Shown here: piece after piece, positions 5,492-25,920 of the stretch
Position numbering within the stretch: the first letter of the stretch is position 1
Layout of the letters: every line of letters starts with the position of its first letter
NCBI RefSeq assembly: GCF_900009265.2
Contig: NZ_LR735026.1
Location: 432,070 to 496,069 of the forward strand
DNA length: 64,000 nucleotides
Source: Planktothrix paucivesiculata PCC 9631
GTDB lineage: Bacteria > Cyanobacteriota > Cyanobacteriia > Cyanobacteriales > Microcoleaceae
Reading direction: 5' to 3'
The notes under the pieces: model-generated
Seen by the model: only the letters and a program-made list of their open reading frames with translations
Told to the model about the DNA's origin: nothing
Database searches by the model: none
Made by a program: the position numbers and the translations under genes

Positions 5492-6955
5492 GTGACCCCA
5501 AAACGAATTTTAATCTGGTATCGAAACGATTTACGACTTCATGACCATCAACCCTTATCCTCAGCATTAAACACGCAAGCACAGATTATTCCTGTGTATT
5601 GTTTTGACCCCAGACAGTTTAAAAAAACCTCCTATGGATTCCCCAAAACCGGAGCTTTTCGCACTCAATTTTTATTAGAAAGTGTTACAGATTTACGTCA
5701 ATCTTTCAGAAAGTTAGGAAGTGATTTAATCATCCGTGAAGGGAAGCCAGAAATAGTTATTTCTGAATTAGTTAAAATCCTAAATATTGATGCGGTCTAT
5801 TATTATCAAGAAGCCACTTCCGAAGAATTAACCGTAGAACAAAATTTAAAAACTGCCTTAGCTGCTTTAGGAGTTGTTGTTAAATCCTACTGGGGTGCAA
5901 CCCTTTATTCTATCGCTGATTTACCTTTTTCTATTCCTCAACTTCCAGAAATTTTTACTCAATTTAGAAAGCAAGTTGAATCTAAATCAATTATCAATAC
6001 TCCGTTTTCTTCCCCTCAACAATTACCCCCTTTACCCGAAATTGAATTAGGAGAATTACCCACAATTCAAGATTTGGGTTTAGAAATGCCTGTTTTTGAT
6101 CATCGGGCGGTGATGGAATTTAAAGGCGGAGAAACCGCAGGATTAGACCGTTTAAAAGATTATATTTGGGAACAGGATTGTCTAAAAACCTATAAAGAAA
6201 CCCGCAATGGAATGTTAGGGGCAAATTATTCTTCTAAGTTTTCCCCCTGGTTAGCTTTAGGCTGTTTATCTCCCCGACTAATTTATAATACAGTTCAAAT
6301 TTATGAAAAAGAACGGATCAAAAATGATTCAACTTACTGGTTGATTTTTGAATTATTATGGCGAGATTATTTTAAATTTATTGCTTTAAAACATGGAAAT
6401 AAAATATTTTATCCTCAAGGTCTACAAGGAATAGAAATTCCTTGGAAAGACAATCCCAAACAGTTTGAACAATGGCAACGGGGAATCACTGGTTTTCCCT
6501 TAGTTGATGCGAATATGCGAGAATTATTAACCACAGGATTTATGTCAAACCGAGGGCGGCAAAATGTAGCTAGTTTCCTGACTAAAAATTTAGGGATTAA
6601 TTGGCAAAGGGGGGCAGAATGGTTTGAATCTTTGTTAATTGATTATGATGTTTGTAGTAATTGGGGTAACTGGAATTATACCGCGGGAGTGGGTAATGAT
6701 GCCCGAGGATTCCGTTATTTTAATATTCTCAAACAATCGAAAGATTATGATCCGAATGGAGATTATGTTAAACACTGGCTCCCCGAATTAAGGGATTTAC
6801 CGCCCTCAAAAGTTCATCAACCTGGGAAATTATTACCCGTTGAACAAAAACGCTTTGGGGTAATTTTAGGCGTTGATTATCCTCAACCCATGGTTGATTT
6901 AGAAAAATCTGTTCAAGCAAATCAATTGATTTATGAAGCTGCGGTGAGAATTTAA
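5492..6955 (+). CDS. Cryptochrome DASH / photolyase family protein
   Basis: Flavoprotein of 487 aa that uses blue light. DASH members repair cyclobutane dimers in single-stranded DNA and bind FAD plus an antenna cofactor. The N-terminal antenna fold begins RILIWYRNDLRLHDHQPL, and the DASH-type stretch YGFPKTGAFRTQFLLES is present. The C-terminal FAD domain has GMLGANYSSKFSPWLALG, ELLWRDYFKF, FPLVDANMREL and the DASH-like ending DPNGDYVKHWLPEL. The start is GTG at 5492, and no in-frame ATG precedes the conserved domain. It is monocistronic and is followed by a palindromic repeat. Confidence 0.9.
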   Translation: MTPKRILIWYRNDLRLHDHQPLSSALNTQAQIIPVYCFDPRQFKKTSYGFPKTGAFRTQFLLESVTDLRQSFRKLGSDLIIREGKPEIVISELVKILNIDAVYYYQEATSEELTVEQNLKTALAALGVVVKSYWGATLYSIADLPFSIPQLPEIFTQFRKQVESKSIINTPFSSPQQLPPLPEIELGELPTIQDLGLEMPVFDHRAVMEFKGGETAGLDRLKDYIWEQDCLKTYKETRNGMLGANYSSKFSPWLALGCLSPRLIYNTVQIYEKERIKNDSTYWLIFELLWRDYFKFIALKHGNKIFYPQGLQGIEIPWKDNPKQFEQWQRGITGFPLVDANMRELLTTGFMSNRGRQNVASFLTKNLGINWQRGAEWFESLLIDYDVCSNWGNWNYTAGVGNDARGFRYFNILKQSKDYDPNGDYVKHWLPELRDLPPSKVHQPGKLLPVEQKRFGVILGVDYPQPMVDLEKSVQANQLIYEAAVRI

Positions 6956-6960
6956 GATCT

Positions 6961-6988
6961 GTAGGGGTAATTCATGAATCACCCCTAC
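6961..6988. repeat. GTAGGGG...CCCCTAC palindrome, copy 1
   Basis: 28-bp near-perfect palindrome: GTAGGGGTAATTCA joined to TGAATCACCCCTAC. It lies between the convergent photolyase gene and the small membrane-protein gene, five bases after the photolyase stop. Related copies are at 37669, 57160 and 63911. It could act as a bidirectional terminator hairpin. Confidence 0.75.
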
Positions 6989-6995
6989 TATAGTT

Positions 6996-7199
6996 TTATT
7001 CCTGATTCATTTGAGCATCTTTAACCGCAGCAAAAAATAGAAATATACCTAAAGGAATACTCAGGGCTAAAATCACACTGGTGGTTAAACCGCCCAGTTG
7101 GGGATCGCCTGACGAGAGTTCAAAGACCGAACCCACCGATGCGATCGCCGCCACACAAGATCCTAATAACAAAACCATACTTTTTGGAGTGCCGACCAT
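6996..7199 (-). CDS. Small two-helix membrane protein, 67 aa
   Basis: Two hydrophobic segments are visible (about residues 8-28 and 38-60), with a short polar tail AAVKDAQMNQE. No family was recognised. It starts with ATG at 7199, 16 bases after the stop of the peptide deformylase gene on the same strand, so the two are likely co-transcribed. Good frame length, hydrophobic pattern and tight spacing support a real gene. Function unknown. Confidence 0.65.
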   Translation of the reverse strand: MVGTPKSMVLLLGSCVAAIASVGSVFELSSGDPQLGGLTTSVILALSIPLGIFLFFAAVKDAQMNQE

Positions 7200-7215
7200 C
7201 TGGAATTATCCTATA

Positions 7216-7779
7216 TTATTTAACAGATTTAACCGCTTTAGGCGAGAATTTATGCTTGGTCAATTCTTCATTTAAAGCCAATTTATTCTCGACTCTATCG
7301 ACAAACAAAACCCCCTGCAAATGATCCATTTCATGTTGAATGGCACGACATAATAATTCCGTCGCTTTCAGGGTGCGCGGTCTGCCATTTTCATCTTTAA
7401 AAGATACTTCTATCTCCTCCGGGCGAGTCACATCCATATAAACCCCCGGAATACTCAAACATCCCTCTTGAAATGGTGAAATTTCCGTACTGGATTTAAT
7501 AATTGTTGGATTAATCAAGACTAAGGGAGGAGTGGCAGCGTTATCGGGTTCGCAGTCGATCACAATCACCTGTTTATTCACCGCCACTTGGGGGGCAGCT
7601 AAACCAATACCGTCCGCACTGTACATGGTTTGTAACATCTCCCGCACCAGTTGACGAATTTCGTCATCAATCCGCGCTACCCTTTTGGCAGGAGTTCTTA
7701 AGGCGCGATCGCCTAAAAAGTGAATCTCAAAGGGAGGTTTTTCTAACTTTTTCTTTTCAACTAAAACTTGTACGGTCAT
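7216..7779 (-). CDS. def: Peptide deformylase
   Basis: Metal-dependent enzyme that removes the formyl group from the first methionine of new proteins, 187 aa. All three signature motifs are present: GIGLAAPQV (57-65), EGCLS (105-109, metal Cys107) and QHEMDH (148-153, with the two metal-binding His and catalytic Glu). Length is normal, with a short basic N-terminal extension (VEKKKLEKPPFEI) common in cyanobacterial copies. ATG at 7779. The small membrane-protein gene follows closely and may share the transcript. Confidence 0.95.
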   Translation of the reverse strand: MTVQVLVEKKKLEKPPFEIHFLGDRALRTPAKRVARIDDEIRQLVREMLQTMYSADGIGLAAPQVAVNKQVIVIDCEPDNAATPPLVLINPTIIKSSTEISPFQEGCLSIPGVYMDVTRPEEIEVSFKDENGRPRTLKATELLCRAIQHEMDHLQGVLFVDRVENKLALNEELTKHKFSPKAVKSVK

Positions 7780-8017
7780 AGAAGGGTTACTCTGAACTTC
7801 TGAAACAATCTGGTGAACTCAGTCGAAAGATCGCCCCTCCGACTCGTTTTCAAAACCGTGAGGGGTGACTTTCATCTCCGACGGTTTCTTAAATTATACG
7901 GTGCTGATCACCCATAAAGAGCGATATCCTGGGACATTCTCACCTCCTTTTGATGTAGAAATGTTTTCAGCCAACATCCCTATGCTTTTGGTTGATGTTC
8001 TCCCCTAAATTGAGAAT

Positions 8018-8977
8018 TTAACTCGCCATATAGTCATCAATATCTTTTTTACGTTTTCGCAATTTTGTTAAAGCTTCTCTTTCAATTTGTCGAACTCGCT
8101 CTCGACTAATATTCAAGCGATCGCCAATTTTAGCTAAGGTTAAACTTTGCCCATCTTCTAAACCAAATCGCAACGATAGCACCTGACGCTGTTGTTCGGT
8201 TAAATCAGCCATCATTACTTCTAAATCGGTGCGGAGGGAAGATTGCAAGGCAAAATCCTCGGGAGATGTTCCCGTATCTTCTAAAAGATCCCCTAACTCC
8301 GTATCTTGGTTATCGCCCACCCGCAAATCCAGGGACAGAGGCAGACGAGCCCGTTCTAAATATTCCCGAATTTGTCGCGGGGTAAGTTCTAATTCCACCG
8401 CCAATTCCGCCATGGTCGCGGCTCGCCCGAATTTTTGGGCCAATTGACGTTGGGCTTTTTTAATTTTGTTGAGTTTTTCGGTAATATGAATCGGCAGACG
8501 AATGGTACGGCCTTTTTCAGCGATCGCCCGGGTAATCGCCTGACGAATCCACCAATAGGCATAGGTGGAAAAACGATATCCTTTGGTGGGATCAAATTTT
8601 TCGACGCCACGCTGCATTCCAATGGTGCCTTCTTGGATCAAGTCCAGTAGGTCTACATTCCGTTTAATGTACTTTTTGGCAACGGACACCACCAAACGCA
8701 AGTTAGCCTCCACCATTTTGCGTTTCGCACTTTGGCCCTGTTCCATCACCCGCTCTAATTGCGCTTCCGATAGTCCCACTGCTTCCGCCCATTCTGCTGG
8801 GCTCGGCGCTCGACCTAAACTGGTGGCTAGATCTTCCCATTGATTTTGAACAGCATTCAAGTGTTGTACTTGTTTGCCATAGATAATTTCTTGCTCATGG
8901 GTGAGCAGGGGAACGCGACCAATTTCTCGTAGATAAGCGCGTACAGAGTCTGTGTCTGAGGTTTTAGCAAATTTCAT
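8018..8977 (-). CDS. RNA polymerase sigma factor, group 2 (sigma-70 type)
   Basis: Primary-like, non-essential type sigma factor of 319 aa. Region 1.2 ([21 protein letters not shown]) lacks the long 1.1 extension of SigA. Region 2 is intact ([58 protein letters not shown]), as are region 3 ([20 protein letters not shown]) and the region 4 helix-turn-helix ([20 protein letters not shown]). The sequence most resembles SigB/SigC/SigD-type factors, but the subgroup cannot be assigned safely. Such factors mediate stress, carbon/nitrogen or dark responses. It has a long leader with several hairpins (8978-9265). Confidence 0.93.
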
Positions 8978-9082
8978 GGCTCATCTCCGGCTGGATACCT
9001 TAACCTATAAAGGTTTGATACGTCAAGCCCCTACTCGAAGCGCGAAAAACGATATCTTTCGTGATCAAGTACGGACGGTTAG

Positions 9083-9110
9083 CCTAGGTGTTAGTACCTG
9101 GGGGTTTTTT
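9083..9110 (+). terminator. Terminator-like hairpin with T6 tail on plus strand
   Basis: CCTAGGT (9083-9089), a six-base loop and ACCTGGG (9096-9102) form a stem with one G-T pair, followed by GGTTTTTT. It reads rightward, opposite to the sigma gene, and no gene precedes it on that strand. It might end a small antisense RNA to the sigma leader. Confidence 0.4.
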
Positions 9111-9163
9111 CAATGTTTAAGCTCTATAACGCTAATTTGCCGTTACAGTCTTAACATAACTAC

Positions 9164-9169
9164 ATTATA
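9164..9169 (-). promoter_or_regulatory. Candidate -10 box for the sigma gene
   Basis: Minus-strand TATAAT, about 190 bases upstream of the sigma start. No good -35 box is visible at 16-18 bases, as expected for an activator-dependent or group 2 promoter. Assignment is tentative. Confidence 0.35.
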
Positions 9170-9205
9170 TGTTAAGAAGTTTAACATTTCTTAAAGTAAC
9201 TGACT

Positions 9206-9262
9206 ATCCCCCCTAGGAGCGGAATCTCCAAAGGCCAGACGCTATATTCCTAGGAGGGTAGC
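9206..9262. repeat. Inverted repeat CCCCTAGGA / TCCTAGGAGGG
   Basis: Arms around 9207-9220 (CCCCCCTAGGAGCGG) and 9247-9262 (ATTCCTAGGAGGGTAG) can pair over about 12 bases. It lies between the sigma leader and the Anbu promoter. It may be a regulator site or RNA hairpin. Confidence 0.45.
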
Positions 9263-9330
9263 CTGTAACAGTTTTTTTGATTGCATCACACAAAACAAAA
9301 TCTTCATGTTCCCTTAACAGTTGATATCGG

Positions 9331-9360
9331 TTGACAGGTTCCGTCCCAGAAGTCTATGCT
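9331..9360 (+). promoter_or_regulatory. Sigma-70 type promoter for the Anbu-type gene
   Basis: Consensus -35 TTGACA (9331-9336), an 18-base spacer and -10 TATGCT (9355-9360), 42 bases before the ATG at 9402. Confidence 0.6.
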
Positions 9361-9401
9361 CTAAGGTTTGGCAGTCTGCTGATTTTGTTTAAACTTCATT
9401 T

Positions 9402-10169
9402 ATGACTTATTGTTTAGGAATTATTACGGATACGGGCTTTGTGATGGCTTCGGACTCCCGCACGAATGCTGGGGTTGATCATATTTCTACCTATCGAAAA
9501 TTATTTGATTTCTCTAAACCGGGCGATCGCGTTATCCTATTATGTACTGCCGGAAATCTTTCCGTTACCCAGGGGATTGTCAGCGAATTAGATCGGGATA
9601 TTAAAAGTCAGGAAGATGTCAATTTACACAGTCTTCCCTCCATGTATGAAGTGGCTCGATATATTGGGACAAAACTCAGAAAAGTTCAAGAAATTGATGA
9701 GCATTGGCTGAAAAAAGACGGGATTGAACCGAAATGCTCCATGCTATTAAGCGGTCAAATCCAAGGACAAGAACCTTGTCTATTTTTGATTTACAGCCAA
9801 GGTAATTTTATTCATGCCACCAAAGAAACACCTTTTTTACAAATCGGAGAAACCAAATATGGTAAACCTATTTTAGATCGCACCCTCAGTTTCCAAACCC
9901 ATTTAGAAGCGGCGGCTAAATGTGCCTTACTTTCGATTGATTCTACGATGAAATCTAATATTTCTGTGGGGCCACCGATTAATTTAGTTTTGTATGAAAA
10001 AGATAGTTTAGAAATCAAAAATTTTCTGAAACTGCGTTTAGGTGATCCCTATTTAGCCAAAATCCGTAAGGTTTGGGAAGAATGTCTCAAACAAGGATTT
10101 AATGAAATTCCCGATATCGATTGGCAACATCGAGGTAGTGATTTCTCGGAAGATGTTTTAATTGATTAG
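9402..10169 (+). CDS. Anbu-type proteasome-like Ntn-hydrolase
   Basis: Proteasome-type protein of 255 aa related to Anbu (ancestral beta subunit, COG3484). After Met removal the N-terminal residue would be Thr, the nucleophile of Ntn proteases. The Asp of ASDSRT (D18) and a Lys in TYRKLF (K33) match the usual catalytic Asp and Lys. The stretch LLCTAGNLSVTQGI fits the family core. Anbu proteins form helical or ring-like oligomers and their substrates are largely unknown. In proteobacteria the gene sits with alpha-E, transglutaminase and ATP-grasp genes. Here it stands without them, next to a dehydrogenase gene. It has its own promoter. Confidence 0.88.
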   Translation: MTYCLGIITDTGFVMASDSRTNAGVDHISTYRKLFDFSKPGDRVILLCTAGNLSVTQGIVSELDRDIKSQEDVNLHSLPSMYEVARYIGTKLRKVQEIDEHWLKKDGIEPKCSMLLSGQIQGQEPCLFLIYSQGNFIHATKETPFLQIGETKYGKPILDRTLSFQTHLEAAAKCALLSIDSTMKSNISVGPPINLVLYEKDSLEIKNFLKLRLGDPYLAKIRKVWEECLKQGFNEIPDIDWQHRGSDFSEDVLID

Positions 10170-15918: not shown

Positions 15919-18396
15919 TTAGGAATGGGTAACGGCGTATTCATTCAGAGAATTCAGGGCATGATCTCCGGGTGAAATCGTGACTTTCCCCTGTTGATCC
16001 ACATCAATAAATGCTCGATCGCCATCCTTAATTGTTCCAGCTAATAAGGCTTCAGCTAAGGCATCTTCTAACAGATTCATTAAGGCCCGACGTAACGGTC
16101 TTGCCCCATATTTAGGATCAAAACCCACATTAACTAAATGATCTTTGAACCCTTCACTCACCGTTAAAGTAATATCCCTTTCCATTAACCTGGCCAGCAG
16201 ATCTCGGAGTAAGATTTCGGCAATTTGCTTAACTTCAGATTTCAGCAATTGACGGAAGACAATAATTTCATCCAAACGGTTAAGAAATTCCGGCCGAAAA
16301 TATTGTTTGAGTTCCTCATGGACTAAATTTTTAATCCGGTTATATTGCTGATCTGCTTCAGAAGCAGCACCCCATTCAAATCCTAAACCGCCGCCGCCTT
16401 TTTCAATTACCTTAGAACCCACGTTTGAGGTCATGATAATTAAGGTGTTTTTGAAACTGACCGTGCGACCTTTAGCATCGGTTAAACGTCCATCTTCTAA
16501 GATTTGTAATAACAAATTGAAGACATCGGGATGGGCTTTTTCAATTTCATCAAATAGCACCACCGTATAGGGACGACGACGGACGGCTTCAGTTAATTGC
16601 CCGCCTTCTTCATAGCCAACAAATCCTGGGGGAGAACCGATTAATTTAGACACCGTATGTCGTTCCATATATTCCGACATATCTAAACGAATCATCGCGT
16701 CTTCTGCCCCGAAGAAATAGGTCGCTAGGGCTTTAGTTAATTCGGTTTTTCCGACTCCCGTGGGGCCAGAAAAAATGAAACTGGCAATCGGGCGATCGGG
16801 ATTTTTTAATCCCACCCGGGCACGACGAATGGCGCGAGAAACGGCCCCTACCGCTTCATTTTGACCAATTAAACGTTCATGTAAGATATCTTCCAATTTC
16901 AATAATTTTACCGATTCTGATTCGGTTAATTTATTGACATTAATACCTGTCCATGCAGCTAAAATTTCGGCAATATCGTCTTCAGTAACAACTAAACCCG
17001 TACCCGCTATATTGGTTTTTTCAGTGGGGGTTTCTAGTTTATCTTTGATTTCCAATTCGCGATCGCGCAGTTGACTGGCTTGATCGAAATCTTGGAGTTT
17101 GACGGCTGTTTCTTTTTCGCCAATAACTTTAGTTAATTCCCGTTTTAACTCGCGTAATTCGGGGGGAACTTTGGAATTCATCACCCGGACTCGCGAACCC
17201 GCTTCATCAATTAAATCAATGGCTTTATCGGGTAAAAAGCGATCGCTAATATAGCGATCAGATAGGGTCGCCGCCGCGTATAATGCCTGATCGGAAATCG
17301 TTAATTGATGGTGTTGTTCATAAGCGCGACGCAAGCCGAACAGAATTTCCACGGTTTCTTCCACGGTGGGTTCGCCGACCATCACCGGTTGGAACCGCCG
17401 TTCCAGGGCCGCATCCCGTTCAATATATTTGCGGTATTCATCCAGGGTAGTCGCCCCTAAGCATTGCAACTCACCCCGGGCGAGGGAGGGTTTGAGCATA
17501 TTGGAGGCGTCCATAGTCCCTTCAATGGAACCTGCACCCACAATGGTATGCAGTTCATCGATGACTAAAATGATATTTCCGGCGGTACGAATTTCTTCGA
17601 CAATGGTTTTCAGCCGTTCTTCAAATTCCCCCCGGAAGCGGGTTCCAGAGATCAGGGTTCCCATGTTCAAGCTGATCACTTGCTTGTTTTCCAGGACATC
17701 GGGAACATCGTTATTGACAATGCGTTGGGCCAAGCCTTCCGCAATGGCGGTTTTTCCCACCCCGGGTTCACCCACCAACACGGGGTTATTTTTCGTGCGG
17801 CGTCCCAGAATTTGAATTACCCGCTCAATTTCCCGTTGACGACCGATCATCGGGTCAAGTTTGCCTTCGGCGGCCAGTTGGGTGAGGTTTGTGCCGAATT
17901 CGTCCAGGGTGGCGGTTTTGGTGGACTTGCTGCGACTTCCTCCCCCCGGGGCGACGGTGGCTTCTTCTCCCAGGGATCGAATTACCTCAGTCCGCACTTG
18001 AGAACGGTCAACCCCCAGATTTTCTAGGACTTTTGACGCTACCCCTTCGTTGTCTTGGAGTAATCCGAGTAAAATATGTTCGGGGCCGATATAGTTATTG
18101 CCCATTTGTCGCGCTTCTTTCATCGCGGTTTCAAAGATGCGTTTGGCCCTGGGGGTAAAGGGAATTTCCACGGGCAGGAAACCTGACCCACGACCAATAA
18201 TTGCCTCAACTTCTTTTTGGACTTCACGGAGGGCTAACCCTTGCGCCTTCAAGGTTTTGGCAGCAACACTGGTTCCTTCACTCATCAAGCCCACAAGAAT
18301 TTGTTCTGTTCCTACAAAGTTATGTCCCAGGCGTCGGGCTTCTTCCTGAGCTAACATCACCGCCTTAATTGCCTTATCCGAGAAGTATTCAAACAT
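15919..18396 (-). CDS. clpC: ATP-dependent Clp protease ATP-binding subunit ClpC
   Basis: HSP100 unfoldase of 825 aa that feeds proteins into ClpP/ClpR and is the main Clp chaperone of cyanobacteria and plastids. Domain order: two N-terminal Clp_N repeats (about 1-145), first AAA+ module with Walker [12 protein letters not shown]-like middle segment (about 420-455), second AAA+ module with GPTGVGKT, and a C-terminal D2-small domain. Sequence identity to ClpC is clear from [23 protein letters not shown] at 18396 with a GGGAG site before it. It ends in its own terminator. Confidence 0.97.
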
Positions 18397-18565
18397 TTTT
18401 TATGCTCACTCCCTTATGACGTTTATTTTTATGGAGTTGTCATCCCTGGTGGGGGACGATGATAGGTTTTAATGTCCCGATGTAAATTTTTATTGAGATA
18501 CTACAACCTAATGTAACGTTATTGGGGTCAATGTGTAGTGGGGACACCCGTAATTTTAGAGGAGG

Positions 18566-18594
18566 TTGTCATTGCTCCCTCGGATCGATATAAT
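18566..18594 (+). promoter_or_regulatory. Consensus sigma-70 promoter, target unclear
   Basis: TTGTCA (18566-18571), exactly 17 bases, TATAAT (18589-18594). It reads rightward and the first gene in that direction begins about 250 bases later, so it drives either a long leader or an unannotated RNA. Confidence 0.5.
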
Positions 18595-18720
18595 GTCACG
18601 GACTTTGACCCGGGTAGGCCCTTGATTTTGATCCTCTCGGGCGGATATGTCCTAACGGATAGTTGGGCTAGTTTAGGGGCGGGTGAGCAATTATGCAATC
18701 GCTAACCTCATTTTAATTCT

Positions 18721-18750
18721 TTATTATTCTTTTTAGGTAGGGGAGGTAAA
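18721..18750. repeat. Left copy of 30-bp direct repeat
   Basis: Begins TTATTATTCTTTTTAGGTA and ends GGGAGGTAAA. It differs at one position from 21365-21394, where it lies in an MFS-transporter relic. In the matching frame it reads LLFFLGRGGK, also like an exporter tail. The copies bracket 2.6 kb holding the antitoxin-like and TOPRIM/AAA genes. Confidence 0.7.
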
Positions 18751-18852
18751 CTCAACCCTAGGATGAATTAGATTTTAATACATTTTTATAACGGATTTAG
18801 AGTTTCTATAAAAAAATATATAATAGACAATAACCCAATTCAAAAGCACTTT

Positions 18853-19170
18853 ATGAACGTTACCGATATTCGCAATCAAGTTAAACAGTATGTTGATCAG
18901 CTATCTCCAGAAAAACTCAGGGTAGCTGCGGATTTTTTATCGTATTTAGCAGAACGAGAAAGTCAAGAAGCAACAGAAGAATTACTTGAAATTCCTGGGT
19001 TTAAAGAATCTTTTGAAAAAGGAAAAGAAGATGTTTTAGAAGAACGATTGATTTCTGTTGATAAACTCAAAAAACGAAAAATTTTGATTAATACCCTACA
19101 AGGAAAATATGCTCATGCTCCCACCAGTAGTGAAGATTTTGCTCAACAAAAACAAAAGGACTATGAATAA
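18853..19170 (+). CDS. Antitoxin-like small protein
   Basis: Polar protein of 105 aa. The N-terminal part (VKQYVDQLSPEKLRVAADFL, then SYLAERES) resembles DUF2281-like or antitoxin proteins common in cyanobacteria. The C-terminal part (QGKYAHAPTSSEDFAQQKQK) resembles the tail of antitoxins that pair with PIN toxins. The join, with a repeated lysine-rich linker (DKLKKRKILI), may be a chimera of two antitoxins. No toxin gene follows; the next gene is convergent. Function is by resemblance only. Confidence 0.6.
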   Translation: MNVTDIRNQVKQYVDQLSPEKLRVAADFLSYLAERESQEATEELLEIPGFKESFEKGKEDVLEERLISVDKLKKRKILINTLQGKYAHAPTSSEDFAQQKQKDYE

Positions 19171-19187
19171 TCTTGAATAGCATCTAA

Positions 19188-19982
19188 TTAAAATTGGGTT
19201 TCTGCTTCATTTGACTGTGAACTATTTGTTGTTTTGAGTACGTCCATCACCACTTTTGCCGCCTCCGTTAAACCTTTGGTGAAAGGAGCATATCCAGTTG
19301 AACAACAAGTTTTAATAATGTCTAAATCAATCTCAAACCCTAGTTTCCATCGGATTTGAAGTGGTCGTTGATTGCTACTAACTTCTGAGAGATAAGTTGA
19401 TTTTGCGATCGCTGTTTCTAAAACATTCTTGATATCATCTAAGATTTCCATATTCTCCAGTTGTTCAATTTCTACATCTAAAATCCTTGAAACAGTTTGA
19501 ATATCAGCCAACAACCACGCCTCAAAATTCTTAATGGCTAAACCACCAGCACTGCGATCATTAATCGATTGATCATTAACATCTAAATGATTATCACGAA
19601 TTCTATTCAAAGCACGTTCTAAGTCCTTCTGTCTTTGAGATAGTTTATCATCCGCATCAACTACAATTAGGATTAGATCTACCTCCTCTGGTTTCCAAGA
19701 AATTACCACCTGTGCTAAATATTTGAGGTCTAAAATTGAATATCCAGTACGCCGTTTACAGACTCGACTTTCATTACTTAATGGGTGTCTTTGTACAAAA
19801 TCAACAAAATCACAATCAGGTAATCCCGCACTTTTGAGTTCTCGTCTAATTAAAGTATGAAGCGCTCCTTCTTTATCCTTTTCAATAATTTTTCCACCGT
19901 CTTCGGGTTTAATATAAGGAATACTATCGCCTAATTCTGCTTCCCCTTCAGCAATTAACCCAATACGAATCGGACGACTCAT
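19188..19982 (-). CDS. TOPRIM-like nuclease partner (DUF4276/RloB-like)
   Basis: Protein of 264 aa, downstream of and overlapping the AAA gene by four bases (ATGA), so translation is coupled. It opens with IRIGLIAEGEAE, placing a Glu (E12) after a hydrophobic strand, and later has LILIVVDADD with a D-x-D (D109, D111). That is the TOPRIM acidic layout of DUF4276, DUF4435 and RloB proteins. In known two-gene systems (RloAB, PARIS) the ATPase senses phage and the TOPRIM partner cleaves nucleic acid. Family assignment is by motif; the defence role is inferred. Confidence 0.65.
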   Translation of the reverse strand: MSRPIRIGLIAEGEAELGDSIPYIKPEDGGKIIEKDKEGALHTLIRRELKSAGLPDCDFVDFVQRHPLSNESRVCKRRTGYSILDLKYLAQVVISWKPEEVDLILIVVDADDKLSQRQKDLERALNRIRDNHLDVNDQSINDRSAGGLAIKNFEAWLLADIQTVSRILDVEIEQLENMEILDDIKNVLETAIAKSTYLSEVSSNQRPLQIRWKLGFEIDLDIIKTCCSTGYAPFTKGLTEAAKVVMDVLKTTNSSQSNEAETQF

Positions 19983-21136
19983 AGGGGATTTCCTCCAAAT
20001 ATATTAGTAAACCAAAGTTCACCTAAAGCGCCATCATAAGCTTCCAGTGCTTTTTGAAAACGCACAGAATCTATGGGTAAACTATGAACTTGAGTTTTAC
20101 CTTCGTTATCTAGTTCAACAGCACGAACTTGATAAGGCTCAACATAATTTAACAGGACAGGAGAATGGGTTGTAATTAAAACTTGAACAGGTTTACCCGC
20201 TATTCCTTCTGTTGATACTATTTTCAATAATTCCATCATTTTATGCAGTAACCAGGGATGAACTCCATTCTCTATTTCTTCAAAACAAAGAATACTCGGA
20301 GTGTGTTCTTGATAAAGTGCAGTTAGAAAAGCCAGGATTCTCAATGTTCCATCGGATATGTCAGAAGCTGGGATATGATGTTCTGAATATCTATCAACTA
20401 ATTCCAGCAAAAAGGTCTGTCTACCACGGAAGGTTGGATTATTACTAGGTAATTTAATTCCTTGTATATTGGGAACAAGTTGTGTTAAACGTTCCTCTAA
20501 TTCATCAAACTTTTTACGATTATTGTGCAAAATATCAACTAAAGCAGAAGCAATTCCTTGCCCTGTCTTTTCCATGCCACCATTTGATGAGTCATCATCG
20601 GATAAGTGAACTGCGGAAAAATTGTAAATACTTACCTTTCTTAAGGCATTAGCAACAAAAGAATCGTGGTATTGATTAGAAACCAAAAATTCTTTGAGTT
20701 CATAAGCAGAATGACTTATTTTATCACAAGTCTGTTTAAGATTTTCTATAAAAACTTTTTTCTGCCGATAATCAAGATTGACTAATAGATCTGAAAATAT
20801 TGTAGTTTCTTCAGAAGAATTGCTTTCTGTTGTAGAACGGGTACTCACTTCAAACAACAGTGAATCTAGTTTTCCCTGCCAGAATTTAGATTCAAAACTC
20901 TGTTGATTCTTACTTACAATTGTTGAAGAATCGCCAAACAAATGTATTAGCCCTTTATCATTCCTAGCAGTAGTAGTAGCTATCACCTTTTGGAGAAAAT
21001 CAGATAATACAGCTAAAGATTCACAAATATTTGATTTTCCCGAACCATTCGGCCCAATAAAGACAGTTAAGGGTTCTAAATTAACTTCTGTATCAAAGAG
21101 GCTTTTATAGTGCTGAACTCGTAGTTTAGATAACAT
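19979..21136 (-). CDS. AAA (SMC/RecF-like) ATPase of a two-gene defence-like module
   Basis: ABC/RecF-type ATPase of 385 aa. It begins LSKLRVQHYKSLFDTEVNLE with Walker A GPNGSGKS at 28-35. A signature-like SDGTLRILAFLTAL, Walker B ILCFEEIENGVHP and the switch histidine strand VLITTHSPVLL follow. Such AAA_21 proteins occur with TOPRIM partners in anti-phage modules and with OLD nucleases. Here the TOPRIM gene follows with a 4-base overlap. The pair lies between two direct repeats, next to dynamin-like genes. Confidence 0.85.
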   Translation of the reverse strand: MLSKLRVQHYKSLFDTEVNLEPLTVFIGPNGSGKSNICESLAVLSDFLQKVIATTTARNDKGLIHLFGDSSTIVSKNQQSFESKFWQGKLDSLLFEVSTRSTTESNSSEETTIFSDLLVNLDYRQKKVFIENLKQTCDKISHSAYELKEFLVSNQYHDSFVANALRKVSIYNFSAVHLSDDDSSNGGMEKTGQGIASALVDILHNNRKKFDELEERLTQLVPNIQGIKLPSNNPTFRGRQTFLLELVDRYSEHHIPASDISDGTLRILAFLTALYQEHTPSILCFEEIENGVHPWLLHKMMELLKIVSTEGIAGKPVQVLITTHSPVLLNYVEPYQVRAVELDNEGKTQVHSLPIDSVRFQKALEAYDGALGELWFTNIFGGNPL

Positions 21137-21262
21137 CTCTTTTAGAGTGAGCAGATTTATTTATTATATAGCAATATTAAACACTTTGTAAAACAAAAAC
21201 TTTTATCCCTATAAAATCGGAGCAATCGCGATCTATATATAATAAGCTTTAAAATTCCATAA

Positions 21263-21421
21263 GCTTTGGTGTCATTAAGTCAAATTGTCGATACCCAAGT
21301 GGCGGTTCTCTCTTTTGCTGATATTTTTAGGGTGGTGGGGGTGGCGTTTTTATGTTCATTACCGTTATTATTCTTTTTAGGTAAGGGAGGTAAAGGTGCA
21401 AAAGCTCCCGCAGCCCATTAA
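21263..21421 (+). pseudogene. C-terminal relic of an EmrB/DHA2-type MFS exporter
   Basis: A 52-codon open stretch preceded by a stop. It reads VSLSQIVDTQVAVLSFADIF and then a hydrophobic helix ending LPLLFFLGKGGKGAKAPAAH, which fits the last helix and tail of DHA2-family drug exporters. All upstream parts are missing. It contains the right copy of the 30-bp repeat, which suggests that the neighbouring module inserted into or recombined with an exporter gene. Confidence 0.65.
21365..21394. repeat. Right copy of 30-bp direct repeat
   Basis: Matches 18721-18750 at 29 of 30 positions. It lies inside the MFS exporter relic. Confidence 0.7.
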
Positions 21422-21522
21422 GGTAAGGATTTTAAAATTTTCCTTCCTGTTGTATAATTCAAAACATTAAGACTGCTCCACATCTTCTGCCTTTTTCCCT
21501 TCCTCCAGTCCTAACCTAAATT

Positions 21523-24072
21523 ATGTCTAATTATTCGCCAGTCGTTGACCCGTCCCTCGACTATCAGTTTTTGCTGGTGACTCACATGGTCTGTGCTGAT
21601 CAACAGATTCACAGTGAAGAATCCAAAACACTTCATGAACTTGCGGTTGAAGTTGGGATCGGAGAACGCACGATCGCAGAAATGGAAAAAATATTAGGTC
21701 AAGATGACGATTACCTATCCATTGAGGAGATCGCAAAGCAGATCCTACCCGGTCAGCAACAAGAAGCGATGAACCAAATTTTAGCGATCGCTTATGTCGA
21801 TGGATTTTGTTCTGTATTGGAACGAAAAATGGCGCAACAGGTCGCTCAACTTTGGAATTGGCCAGAGGGAGAAGTTCAGAAACAATTAATCGAAGCGGGT
21901 GCATTTTCCGATACTCATTCAATTATTGGTAGCGAGAAGCAAGAACTTTCAATTGGAGCGCGTTTACTTAAAAAAGCGGGTACTATTCTATCCCAATCAC
22001 TAATTGATGATTTAGCTAAATTTGTAGGAAAAACGGAAAAAATTGAACAACTCCGACAGGAAATTTTATTATCCGGCCCAGAATATGATCAAGCAATCCG
22101 TCAATGTGCTGCTATTGCAGAAGAAGATTATAAATATGCGGATTTGGCATTAGTGAAAACTGACTCGGCTTTAAAAGGGTTACAGAAAAGCATTAAATTA
22201 AATGTTCAATCAATTGAAAACAAAAGGACAGGGAACGCTCAAGTAAACCTAACTACTCAGGAAGTCGTAAAACAGCTTAAAGTAACTGAAGAAGCACTGA
22301 CCGGACAAATTATTCAACAACTAGAAAGTATACAAGATTCACTGCGTTCTAAAAGACAAGCATTGAATTACTTTAGTATTGCTTTTATGGGTCGAACTAA
22401 AGCCGGAAAAACGACACTTCACGCTATTATTACTAATGATGGGTGGGATGCGATCGGGGTCGGAAAACAACGAACAACCCGGTTTAATCGTGTTTATGAA
22501 TGGAAAAATATCAGAATTATTGATACCCCTGGAATTGGTGCGCCTGGAGGGAAAAGCGATGAAGAAATTGCTGAAAGTATTATTGATGAATCAGATATTA
22601 TTTGTTATGTTGTTACCGATGATAGTATTCAAGAAAGCGAATTTCATTTTTTACGACTTTTAAAAGAAAAAGCCAAGCCTTTAATTATTCTATTGAACGT
22701 TCACAAAAACTTTAAAGACTCAAAACGTGGCCCTTATGAATTAGATAAATTTCTCAAAGATCCTAATAAACTGTTTGCCATGGAAGGTCAAAGTGGTTTA
22801 AGAGGACATATTGATCGAATTCAACGTTATGCTCAAGAATATTATGCCAATGATTACTTTGATATTATTCCTGTAATGTTATTGGCTGCTCAAATGTCCC
22901 GTGAACCTGAACATCAGCATCATAAAGATCAACTTTTTCAAGCTAGTAAAATCCAAAACTTTTTAGACTCAATTCGATCTTCTCTAATTAAACATGGAAA
23001 AATCAGAAGATCGCAAACTTTACTCGGTTCTACCGTTGGCTCAATTGATAATCCTAACTTAACAACTGCTGAAAAAGCACCCTTACAATGGGTTCAAGAA
23101 CAATCAAAAATTTATCATCAACTTAGCGAGACTCTTAAGAGTAAACGAGGAGGAATTTTCACCAAGGTTCGGAAAACCCAAAAAGATACCCAAGCTTTTT
23201 TATTGCAACAAACTGAGACAATTTTTCAAGATGCAATTAATGCAGTTCCGACTTTTGCAGAACAGCATTGGCAGTCTAAGGAACAGGAATTAACATTAGG
23301 ATGGGAGAAAACCCTTAACTCCTTACAATTTGAGCAACGGTTAAGAGGGAGTTATGAAGAATCGAGTAAAACCTTTAATAAAGAAGTTCAAGAAATATTA
23401 GAGGAAGTCGGTCGTGAGCTAGAGCTTGTCGCCCAAATTGGACAATATAAATTTAGTTTTAAGGAACAAGGCTCTATTAATTTTCGCGATATTTTTAGAA
23501 TCAGTGGTAGTATTTTACTGATAGCTTCTGCTATTTTAGTGTTTGTTTCTCCCCCTATAGCTTTAGTTGTTAGCATTGTAGGTGGACTGGTAGGTTTTGC
23601 TAAAAACTTGTTTAAGTCTAAGGAGCAAAAAAGACGAGAAGCCGTTCAAAAAATCTCTGAGGAATTATATACACAGCTTAACCAGGAGAAACGCAAATAT
23701 CTTAAGCAAGCCGATGAGAATTTCATTCAATCTTGTCAAAGTATTATCACAGCAATCGAGGTTTATTTTAATAAGTTAATCGAAGGATTAGACGATATTG
23801 CTAAACAGTTAGATAAGGCAAATAATGAACTAAAGGATAATTCTAAATGGCTTAATCGTGGTTATGCCAAACGAATTATTGACTGGCTGAATGATCGAGA
23901 TGAAGAATTAAATCCTCAAAATATCAATAACAGCATTAAAAAAGTTGAGAGAAATTTTGGTCAGAAAATTCTGATCCAGACAAAAGTTAAGATTTCGGTC
24001 AATAAATCCTCAGAAGAACTTAAGAGTGTACTTCAAGAGGATCTAATCATCAATGATAATAAAATCTTGTAA
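21523..24072 (+). CDS. TerB-domain dynamin-like GTPase
   Basis: Large protein of 849 aa. Residues about 13-115 form a TerB-like helical domain (FLLVTHMVCADQQIHSEESK and AIAYVDGFCSVLERK). A dynamin-type GTPase follows: G1 GRTKAGKT at 290-297, G2 Thr in KQRTTRF, G3 DTPG at 334-337, and an altered G4 (NVHK instead of NKxD). Helical stalk regions surround a hydrophobic segment (about 650-695, SGSILLIASAILVFVSPPIA onward) that could insert into membrane like a dynamin paddle. The second GTPase gene begins 23 bases later, so the two likely form a hetero-oligomer. Role in membrane remodelling or defence is inferred. Confidence 0.8.
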   Translation: MSNYSPVVDPSLDYQFLLVTHMVCADQQIHSEESKTLHELAVEVGIGERTIAEMEKILGQDDDYLSIEEIAKQILPGQQQEAMNQILAIAYVDGFCSVLERKMAQQVAQLWNWPEGEVQKQLIEAGAFSDTHSIIGSEKQELSIGARLLKKAGTILSQSLIDDLAKFVGKTEKIEQLRQEILLSGPEYDQAIRQCAAIAEEDYKYADLALVKTDSALKGLQKSIKLNVQSIENKRTGNAQVNLTTQEVVKQLKVTEEALTGQIIQQLESIQDSLRSKRQALNYFSIAFMGRTKAGKTTLHAIITNDGWDAIGVGKQRTTRFNRVYEWKNIRIIDTPGIGAPGGKSDEEIAESIIDESDIICYVVTDDSIQESEFHFLRLLKEKAKPLIILLNVHKNFKDSKRGPYELDKFLKDPNKLFAMEGQSGLRGHIDRIQRYAQEYYANDYFDIIPVMLLAAQMSREPEHQHHKDQLFQASKIQNFLDSIRSSLIKHGKIRRSQTLLGSTVGSIDNPNLTTAEKAPLQWVQEQSKIYHQLSETLKSKRGGIFTKVRKTQKDTQAFLLQQTETIFQDAINAVPTFAEQHWQSKEQELTLGWEKTLNSLQFEQRLRGSYEESSKTFNKEVQEILEEVGRELELVAQIGQYKFSFKEQGSINFRDIFRISGSILLIASAILVFVSPPIALVVSIVGGLVGFAKNLFKSKEQKRREAVQKISEELYTQLNQEKRKYLKQADENFIQSCQSIITAIEVYFNKLIEGLDDIAKQLDKANNELKDNSKWLNRGYAKRIIDWLNDRDEELNPQNINNSIKKVERNFGQKILIQTKVKISVNKSSEELKSVLQEDLIINDNKIL

Positions 24073-24095
24073 ACCTTAAATTAAGGAAGAAAAAA

Positions 24096-25850
24096 ATGGC
24101 TGCTCAAAACTCTATCTTTAAATCAGCTATAGTAGGTGAAAAATTTAATAAAATCTTGGCTTATTTTGAGAAATTACTCGCTGAAGCCAATCTCCCAGAA
24201 CTGACAGAAATTCAGGAAAAGCTGCGAGAGAATTTAAAAGTATATCGAGAAGATGGAGTTTTAAGCGTTGCTTTTATTGGGCAATATAGCTCAGGTAAAT
24301 CAACCATAATTTCTGCATTAACCGGAAACAGAGATATTAAAATTGATGCCGATATTGCTACAGATAGAACAACCGCTTATAACTGGAATGGGATTAAAAT
24401 TATTGACACGCCAGGGTTATTTACTGAACGCCAAGATCATGATCAAATTACATACGAGGCAATTAATCAAGCTGACTTACTGGTATTTTGTCTAACTTAT
24501 ATGCTGTTTGACTCTATCACAGTTGAGAATTTCAAAAACTTAGCCTATAACAAAGGTTATCGCTGGAAAATGATGTTAGTTGTTAATAAAATGTCAGATG
24601 GAGCCGGAGAGGAAGAAGAACTGATTGCTAATTATCGTGAAAGTTTAGCTCAAGCACTAAAACCCTATAGTTTTGATGAATTTCCGGTTTGTTTTATTGA
24701 TGCAAAAGATTACTGTGAAGGTATTGATGAAAAAGAAGATTTTCTGATAGAAATTAGTCGTTTTCAAACTTTCATTGATGCTTTAAATAAATTTGTTCAA
24801 AAACGCGCTACTTTCGTGAAATTCGATACCCCCATTCGGATTGCTTTAGGTTTTGTTGATGAAGCGGAATTAATTTTTACTCGAAATTCCCCTGAAGATA
24901 ATGCTTTTTTAGAGATTTTAACTCGTCTTTCCCGTGTTCTTCGTAAAGAACGCAGTCGTTTACAAACGAAAGTTAAAAATATTGCTTTGAAAATGTCCTC
25001 ACAAATTGTTAAAGAAGGAACAGTTTTAGCAAATGCGGTAGGAACAGATAAAGATTCCACTCTCTTAAATCAACAAATTGAACTCAATCTTAAAAAATAT
25101 TATGAAACAGCCGCAGCAGAATTACAAGATGTTATTAATGCTGCGGTAGAGGATGTCCGCCAAGAATTTGAAACTGTTTTTCAGGATAATTTAGTTCAGT
25201 CTTTTGTTGCTTGCCTTGACAAAAATCAAACCGTTTCGGCTAATAATGTTAGTGCAGGCATAGATATGGAACGTCTAAAAGTTCAAGTCACCTGGATTAA
25301 AGCCATTGGCGAAACCGCAGGAGTACAAGTTTCTAAACTGGCTACCAACAATTTTCTAAAAACTGGAGCAGAAGGCTTTTTACATTCTATAGATGTAGCG
25401 GGTAGTAGTTTGCATCAAGCTGTTTTAGAAGTTGGCAAATTTGTGGGATTTAAGTTTAAACCTTGGCAAGCAGTGGGAATTGCTAAAGATATTGGTAATG
25501 TCGCTAGTTTTTTAGGCCCTATTCTTGCATTGGCTTCTGTTGGTGTTGACTTGGTAGAAATGCAAAAAGAGAATCAACGTCAACAACAAATGGCTGATAG
25601 TCGCCGAAATATTACGAGCCAGTTTCAAGTCATTGCTAAAGATTTAGAAGATCAAATCTTGCAGCAAGAGAAGGATTTCGAGCAGCAAGTTTATGAAGAA
25701 ATTGACAAGAAAATAGCCCAAGCCCGCCAAGACCAACAAGAGGCGATAGCAGCTTCTAATACTGGGTTGCAAAAATTTATAAAAATCCGCAATAATTTAG
25801 GAACAATCCTTGATTATATTAGCCGAATGAGCAATAATTCAGAGGCTTAA
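24096..25850 (+). CDS. Dynamin-like GTPase (LeoA-like)
   Basis: Protein of 584 aa and partner of the preceding gene. GTPase motifs: G1 GQYSSGKS at 62-69, G2 DRTTAYNW, G3 DTPG at 104-107 and a conventional G4 NKMS at 164-167. Long helical regions follow, with a hydrophobic stretch (about 452-485, IAKDIGNVASFLGPILALAS) that could bind membrane, and a coiled-coil tail rich in Gln and Lys. The order of a GTPase with altered G4 followed by one with normal G4 suggests unequal partners. Tandem bacterial dynamins act in membrane fusion, vesicle export or phage resilience; which applies here is unknown. Confidence 0.8.
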   Translation: MAAQNSIFKSAIVGEKFNKILAYFEKLLAEANLPELTEIQEKLRENLKVYREDGVLSVAFIGQYSSGKSTIISALTGNRDIKIDADIATDRTTAYNWNGIKIIDTPGLFTERQDHDQITYEAINQADLLVFCLTYMLFDSITVENFKNLAYNKGYRWKMMLVVNKMSDGAGEEEELIANYRESLAQALKPYSFDEFPVCFIDAKDYCEGIDEKEDFLIEISRFQTFIDALNKFVQKRATFVKFDTPIRIALGFVDEAELIFTRNSPEDNAFLEILTRLSRVLRKERSRLQTKVKNIALKMSSQIVKEGTVLANAVGTDKDSTLLNQQIELNLKKYYETAAAELQDVINAAVEDVRQEFETVFQDNLVQSFVACLDKNQTVSANNVSAGIDMERLKVQVTWIKAIGETAGVQVSKLATNNFLKTGAEGFLHSIDVAGSSLHQAVLEVGKFVGFKFKPWQAVGIAKDIGNVASFLGPILALASVGVDLVEMQKENQRQQQMADSRRNITSQFQVIAKDLEDQILQQEKDFEQQVYEEIDKKIAQARQDQQEAIAASNTGLQKFIKIRNNLGTILDYISRMSNNSEA

Positions 25851-25920
25851 TTTATAGGTGCGATCGCTTAACCCAAAGCAATGATCAAAATTAGTTTAAG
25901 AAATGCGATCGCTCTTATTA

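Follow-up and report, generated by a model that had tools for sequence, protein, structure and literature searches.

Defence systems that combine an ATPase with a TOPRIM-type partner are the closest described counterparts of the gene pair considered here. PARIS, a class 4 OLD system formed by AriA and AriB, is defined by separate adjacent genes for the ATPase and the TOPRIM protein (PMC12409363), and class 4 OLD is likewise defined by separate adjacent genes (PMC12796447). In PARIS a hexamer of the ATPase sequesters a TOPRIM tRNase and frees it on a phage cue, and the same source names AbiL as an ATPase with a TOPRIM-type partner (PMC12409363). The Hma-embedded candidates (HEC) are placed under unknown mechanism in one survey (PMC10855318), while several of them, including HEC-06, are credited with antiviral activity in another paper, which refers to a 2024 preprint (PMC12988326). 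Our study concerns a 64,000-nucleotide stretch of the genome of the bloom-forming cyanobacterium Planktothrix paucivesiculata PCC 9631 (contig NZ_LR735026.1, positions 432,070 to 496,069; hereafter the window), in which a TOPRIM nuclease-like gene and an ABC/SMC-type ATPase gene lie between two near-identical copies of a 30-bp sequence. We propose, with a probability of roughly 0.6, that these genes form a split OLD-type abortive-infection system directed against phage, sited by recombination, or by duplication and loss, at a decaying exporter gene.

Relationship of the pair to described systems

The TOPRIM nuclease-like gene (264 aa; 19188..19982) and the ATPase gene (385 aa; 19979..21136) both lie on the minus strand and overlap by four bases. 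The ATPase matches Pfam AAA_21 (6e-34), and its best match among 117 PADLOC families is HEC-01A (5e-47). The best PADLOC match of the TOPRIM protein is HEC-01B, although this match is weak and partial (2.6e-6, profile positions 63-158 of 197); HEC-01B models match all 22 of its TOPRIM relatives, at best with 2.9e-9. Taking the rank and E-value of the PADLOC model matches as the basis for grouping, we regard the pair as a putative divergent relative of the PADLOC candidate HEC-01, that is, as one of a known candidate kind. The two proteins are less distinct than the initial annotation took them to be, since they appear to group with HEC-01A and HEC-01B, respectively. A term search of the main text of the 2021 PADLOC paper found no word starting with HEC (PMC8565338), and our literature search returned nothing for HEC-01 together with PADLOC and nothing for DUF4276.

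The acidic motif of TOPRIM domains consists of a glutamate and a DxD. The OLD-type acidic residues are present in the window protein and in the 22-sequence set, across which E12, D109, D111 and D112 are invariant. The protein matches DUF4276 below the Pfam cut-off (2e-4, 22.1 bits versus 30.2), and this family is matched in 21 of the 22 relatives at E<=1; NCBIfam gave no match for it. When its predicted structure (predicted local distance difference test, pLDDT, 77.5) was used in a fold search, OLD TOPRIM domains ranked first (E 0.05, probability 0.51-0.77), with none at E<=0.001, and a sequence-profile search turned up no TOPRIM relative among solved structures. The ATPase model (pLDDT 75.9) gave PtuA and SMC heads at E ~1e-13, the best solved structures being those of PtuA (E 5e-14).

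Membership of the pair in PARIS or in AbiL/RloAB would account for the layout, in which an ATPase and a TOPRIM-type partner are encoded by separate adjacent genes, and the ATPase does match the AriA (2.2e-34) and AbiLi (4.5e-25) models. However, the AriA model covers the same span as AAA_21 and scores below HEC-01A, and the AbiLi match is likewise weaker than that to HEC-01A. No AriB match was found for the window TOPRIM at E<=0.1, or for its 22 relatives at 0.01. The RloB match (0.045) scores 14.4 bits, far short of the cut-off at 31.5, and DUF4435 is unmatched at E<=1 in the window protein and its relatives; of the three families that the initial annotation had proposed for profile searches, two thus fall below their cut-offs and one is not matched. 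The layout resembles that of PARIS while the family does not, and we rejected membership in either system on these profiles as very unlikely.

The remaining ATPase systems differ in their partners or their gene organization. In OLD classes 1-3 and in GajA of Gabija the ATPase and TOPRIM parts form one polypeptide, in contrast to the two genes found here, even though OLD TOPRIM domains head the fold matches, without reaching significance, and the GajA model matches the ATPase (1.7e-18). PtuA, in Septu and in retron Ec78/Eco7, is closest to the ATPase in fold, but its partner is an HNH nuclease rather than a TOPRIM protein. The ATPase of MADS (Mad3) belongs to the family that is the best NCBIfam match here, MADS3, yet the score of 109.5 bits lies under the cut-off of 420 bits and the multi-gene MADS context is not seen. 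At one relative of the locus (L072), a single neighbour protein matches the mad2 model (1.7e-16).

By analogy with PARIS, Septu and Gabija, from which complex formation, sensing, release and target are all carried over, the SMC/ABC-type ATPase would assemble and keep the TOPRIM nuclease silent. On sensing an infection cue it would release the nuclease, which would then cut nucleic acid and stop phage growth. The architecture, motifs and coupling of the pair are directly observed, as are the selection and the patchiness described below; protection against phage is inferred.

Distribution, selection and chromosomal setting

Scanning contigs, taken from one genome per species, with six peptide patterns gave 29 loci. 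A TOPRIM match adjoins the ATPase in 26 of these (the exceptions are L073, L079 and L082), and the four-base overlap is present in all 25 loci in which it was measured; L076 and L079 were unmeasurable, and L081 and L082 lay outside this set. L073 has the overlap, but no TOPRIM similarity follows it. At E<=1e-10 the TOPRIM profile has matches in 11 of the 386 cyanobacterial genomes, representing 7 of 142 genera, all within the order of the window. In five of the 11 genomes (G001, G119, G184, G271 and G408) the pair is partial or interrupted, although some of these breaks may be assembly cuts. The ratio of nonsynonymous to synonymous divergence (dN/dS) of the pair ranges from 0.11-0.25 in comparisons with L057 and L058 to 0.14-0.26 among L066-L070, and the pair is under long-range purifying selection; the comparison of L070 with L080 gives 0.56.

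The settings of the pair outside Planktothrix recur. It lies antisense between ureC and ureB in three loci (L066, L070 and L080) and close to ureC in two more (L061 and L063), while in another six (L059, L060, L062, L064, L068 and L078) it stands immediately upstream of gpmI; the neighbour names rest on Pfam searches of one representative each. These shared chromosomal positions in several genera argue for long residence. We surveyed 318 neighbour open reading frames (ORFs) of 24 loci, listing families common to at least four loci, and no neighbour family accompanies the pair generally. The widest, which we take to resemble Uma2 proteins, occurs at nine loci, at three of them within 600 bp, and one of its members matches PADLOC PDC-S03 (5.4e-23).

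Some individual settings deserve mention. The three ureC/ureB loci (8001-9883 or so) have near-identical spacings of 201 and 45 bases. In L077 a gene for a nickel insertion protein (6648-7973; 1.1e-143) lies 28 bases upstream of the pair, which makes, with the urease sites, two nickel-related settings, possibly by chance. In L059 a RelE toxin gene (6.1e-46) adjoins the pair.

The recurrence beside ureB/ureC or gpmI would suit a housekeeping or stress enzyme, acting for instance in repair, the cell cycle or RNA processing, and an archaeal OLD-family protein does have a role in the cell cycle (PMC12796447). Against a housekeeping role stand the presence of the pair in only 11 of 386 genomes, its partial or interrupted state in nearly half of them, its absence at high identity from seven of the nine other Planktothrix genomes, and the fact that its best models are defence candidates; we consider such a role unlikely. 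Several observations weigh against the defence system that we favour. The TOPRIM protein falls below every Pfam cut-off that it touches and its fold match stands at E 0.05; dN/dS is high within Planktothrix (0.52-0.75); and the identified neighbours outside Planktothrix are mostly housekeeping genes (urease, gpmI) rather than defence islands, with a PADLOC match in 3 of 10 scanned neighbour proteins (E<=1e-4). No TOPRIM relative was found in phage and plasmid collections; among viral contigs, two peptide patterns gave 10 stretches and no relative, which is weak evidence of absence. Finally, the argument for exchange between Planktothrix lineages, set out below, leans on one metagenome-assembled genome (G006).

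The repeat, the ruined exporter and the empty site

The direct repeat comprises a left copy at 18721..18750, whose plus strand reads as the exporter codons LLFFLGRGGK, and a right copy at 21365..21394 (plus strand, LLFFLGKGGK), identical at 29 of 30 bases. It flanks, at the coordinates first assigned to it, an antitoxin-like gene and the coupled TOPRIM-like/AAA pair, as the initial annotation had described. Allowing up to three mismatches, the 30-bp sequence has two matches in the window (mean 0.00 in 100 shuffles) and the same two alone in the whole 6.1-Mb assembly, and so is not common elsewhere in the genome.

Both copies can be traced to an exporter gene. Four of the ten Planktothrix genomes (G001, G003, G004 and G006) hold a full-length exporter of 519 aa, whose last codons include the repeat sequence, with extra mismatches in G003; the intact G006 protein matches Pfam MFS_1 (3.8e-59), and its DHA2 subtype is presumed, no search result naming it. 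The right copy was originally placed within the last codons of such an exporter, and this is borne out: the exporter 3' end with its natural stop occupies 21261..21421 (plus strand), is 92% identical to the G006 exporter over 52 aa by tblastn (E 8.6e-29), and has DNA matches in other genomes. The right copy is in its native place, within 52 exporter codons that run to the stop, and the 104 bp of exporter that adjoin it in native order (21261-21364) lie inside the interval. The left copy corresponds to the same codons joined directly to a 5' relic of the gene (18648..18720, plus strand, about codons 37-66), in which blastn against the intact exporter of G006 aligned 18691-18719 (29 bp, 89.7%, E 2.5e-6) and 18648-18686 (41 columns, 78%, E 3.7e-4). 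For G007, the orthologous flank gives a match of 164 bp to the exporter (75.6%, E 1.5e-29). The relic on the left and the 104 bp within the interval came to light only by comparison with relatives. Since both copies are exporter sequence and a 5' relic lies to the left of the first, the interval sits inside a ruined exporter gene.

An empty site of the kind anticipated by the initial annotation is found in a relative. In G009 the counterparts of window positions 16001-18750 and 21365-25869 follow one another directly, with 95.7% identity in either part and a single 30-bp copy common to both, and the junction of 5' relic and repeat is identical in the window and in G009. Colinearity ends at window base 25869, and aroA was not found in the fetched 32 kb of G009. 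The relatives thus do not all carry the pair in one place: its occurrence is patchy, its positions differ, and G009 lacks it.

A near-perfect direct repeat around the block and an empty site with a single copy are also what would be expected if a transposon-like or site-specific element had carried the module into the exporter 3' end and duplicated a 30-bp target. The 104 bp of exporter inside the block, in native order with the right copy, count against such an element and led us to reject a target-site duplication. A scan of the three interval genes gave no recombinase, and no pair among the 20 inverted repeats listed connects the two ends of the interval. We therefore regard insertion of such an element as highly improbable; the repeat most likely survives from a dead transporter gene and is probably neither a target-site duplication nor the trace of a jumping element.

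The locus agrees with recombination, or with duplication and subsequent loss, at a decayed exporter in a neighbourhood that gathers defence-like genes. If the two repeat copies of the window allele recombined with each other, the G009 allele would result. Conversely, the G009 allele would become the window allele through one crossover with a donor or circle that brought in the module together with the exporter 3' end, and tandem duplication followed by complementary losses would lead to the same outcome. As to the polarity of gain versus loss, a clpC tree of eight genomes gives no resolution among G000, G009, G007, G001 and G004. A related reading, which we think quite unlikely, combines crossovers in Planktothrix at homology as short as 30 bp in the dead exporter with a cyanobacterial split OLD class that would differ from ordinary island-borne defence, being settled within or next to housekeeping genes in several genera (ureC/ureB, gpmI), and whose nuclease would guard or answer a host pathway.

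The third ORF between the repeat copies, on the plus strand (105 aa; 18853..19170), is the antitoxin-like gene, which has no Pfam match above cut-off and no ParE partner. It is chimeric: its first part resembles the ParE-paired antitoxins of other Planktothrix, while its last part is common only to the copy beside the pair in G001 (P. rubescens). It is adjacent and convergent to the pair in the window, and in P. rubescens, too, a chimera built in this way stands next to the pair, so that it could in principle be a third component controlling the TOPRIM protein as a toxin. A homologue, however, occurs among the neighbour ORFs of just one of the 24 surveyed loci (L056, corresponding to G006; L055, which also has one, lay outside the set); the G006 antitoxin overlaps a ParE toxin gene, likely its own partner; and in G009 and G005 the antitoxin is present with no accompanying pair. 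A controlling role is thus very hard to credit. The gene, placed in the block by the initial annotation and indeed present between the repeats, looks like an orphan chimera and is probably a bystander rather than part of the system.

Two further features lie in the interval. A 61-bp stretch (18752..18812, plus strand) is found again in several other genomes of the genus; the G003 copy stands downstream of the intact exporter. Both this stretch and the 5' region of the antitoxin gene (18807-19071) recur at a number of positions in Planktothrix, where they may act as rearrangement sites around clpC and aroA. A promoter-like site on the minus strand (21163..21192), which lies upstream of the ATPase gene, matches at 11 of 12 positions, but is weak, as the region holds 15 such sites versus 9.5 (sd 3.1) in shuffles.

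Probable exchange and turnover in Planktothrix

The pair, or a remnant of it, is placed elsewhere in the neighbourhood in other strains: beside aroA in G001 and G004, and downstream of the intact exporter in G006. Comparisons of synonymous divergence (dS) set it apart from core genes. Between G000 and G006, dS is 0.665 for clpC and 0.153 for the ATPase; between G000 and G001, 0.228 for clpC, 0.270 for aroA and 0.098 for the ATPase; and between G006 and G001, 0.698 for clpC and 0.163 for the exporter. The lower divergence of the pair and the exporter relative to core genes, across clades, is a sign of exchange, and the pair looks to have been transferred horizontally between Planktothrix lineages. 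A mis-binned contig as the source of the G006 similarity was judged unlikely because a core flank on that contig shows, over its first 2,070 bases, 96% identity to the sister genome G008, against 86-90% to the other eight genomes. A less clear picture emerges from the 900 bases that come next, with 91% for G003, 90% for G002, 88% for G008 and 84-85% for G000, G001, G004, G005 and G007. G008 itself has neither exporter nor TOPRIM match, and within its fetched 16 kb the flank alone matches.

Gene content at the locus varies between strains. G006 has, in order, the intact exporter, a reverse transcriptase, an antitoxin, a ParE toxin (6.1e-10) and the pair. In G004 the exporter is followed by LeoBC, a LeoA split around a DDE_3 transposase gene, and an antitoxin with its toxin; the TOPRIM 3' end survives as a 79-bp remnant beside aroA, and clpC is on another contig. 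G001 (P. rubescens PCC7821) has aroA, the chimeric antitoxin, the ATPase and an incomplete TOPRIM gene without a counterpart of window 19470-19803, the part that holds the DxD codons. G007 has clpC, the exporter 5' relic, an NB-ARC protein and aroA. Since relatives hold different genes here, the locus looks like a turnover hotspot.

In the window the interval adjoins two dynamin-family genes on the plus strand that PADLOC lists as defence and that form a separate system: a LeoBC-like gene (21523-24072; LeoBC 3.2e-113) and a LeoA-like gene (24096-25850; LeoA 1.1e-131), presumably the system named Eleos. The LeoBC-like protein has an N-terminal TerB domain (2.1e-6), and close copies of both genes occur in G009 and G004 (95-97%). 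The G006 reverse transcriptase, just downstream of the exporter (L086:10998-12092), matches PADLOC RT-Protease_XI (5.9e-141) but at 364 aa lacks the rest of the 510-position model. The NB-ARC/STAND-type protein of G007 (L090:9398-10747) matches NB-ARC (1.7e-10) and, weakly, PDC-S27 and PDC-S01.

The initial proposal of a mobile defence module inserted at the exporter 3' end therefore holds in part. The empty site, the patchy occurrence, the signs of exchange, the defence candidates among the best models and the LeoBC/LeoA-like neighbours agree with it. The view that the repeat marks an element finds no support: the repeat codes for part of the exporter, and a further piece of that gene lies within the interval.

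With this locus, the HEC-01-like split OLD candidate class gains a compact, conserved cyanobacterial representative, and with intact copies, broken copies and an empty-site allele all occurring naturally, its function is directly testable. The locus also carries a caution, in that a near-perfect direct repeat together with an empty site does not necessarily point to a transposable element: the short homology by which defence modules come and go can derive from a dead gene.

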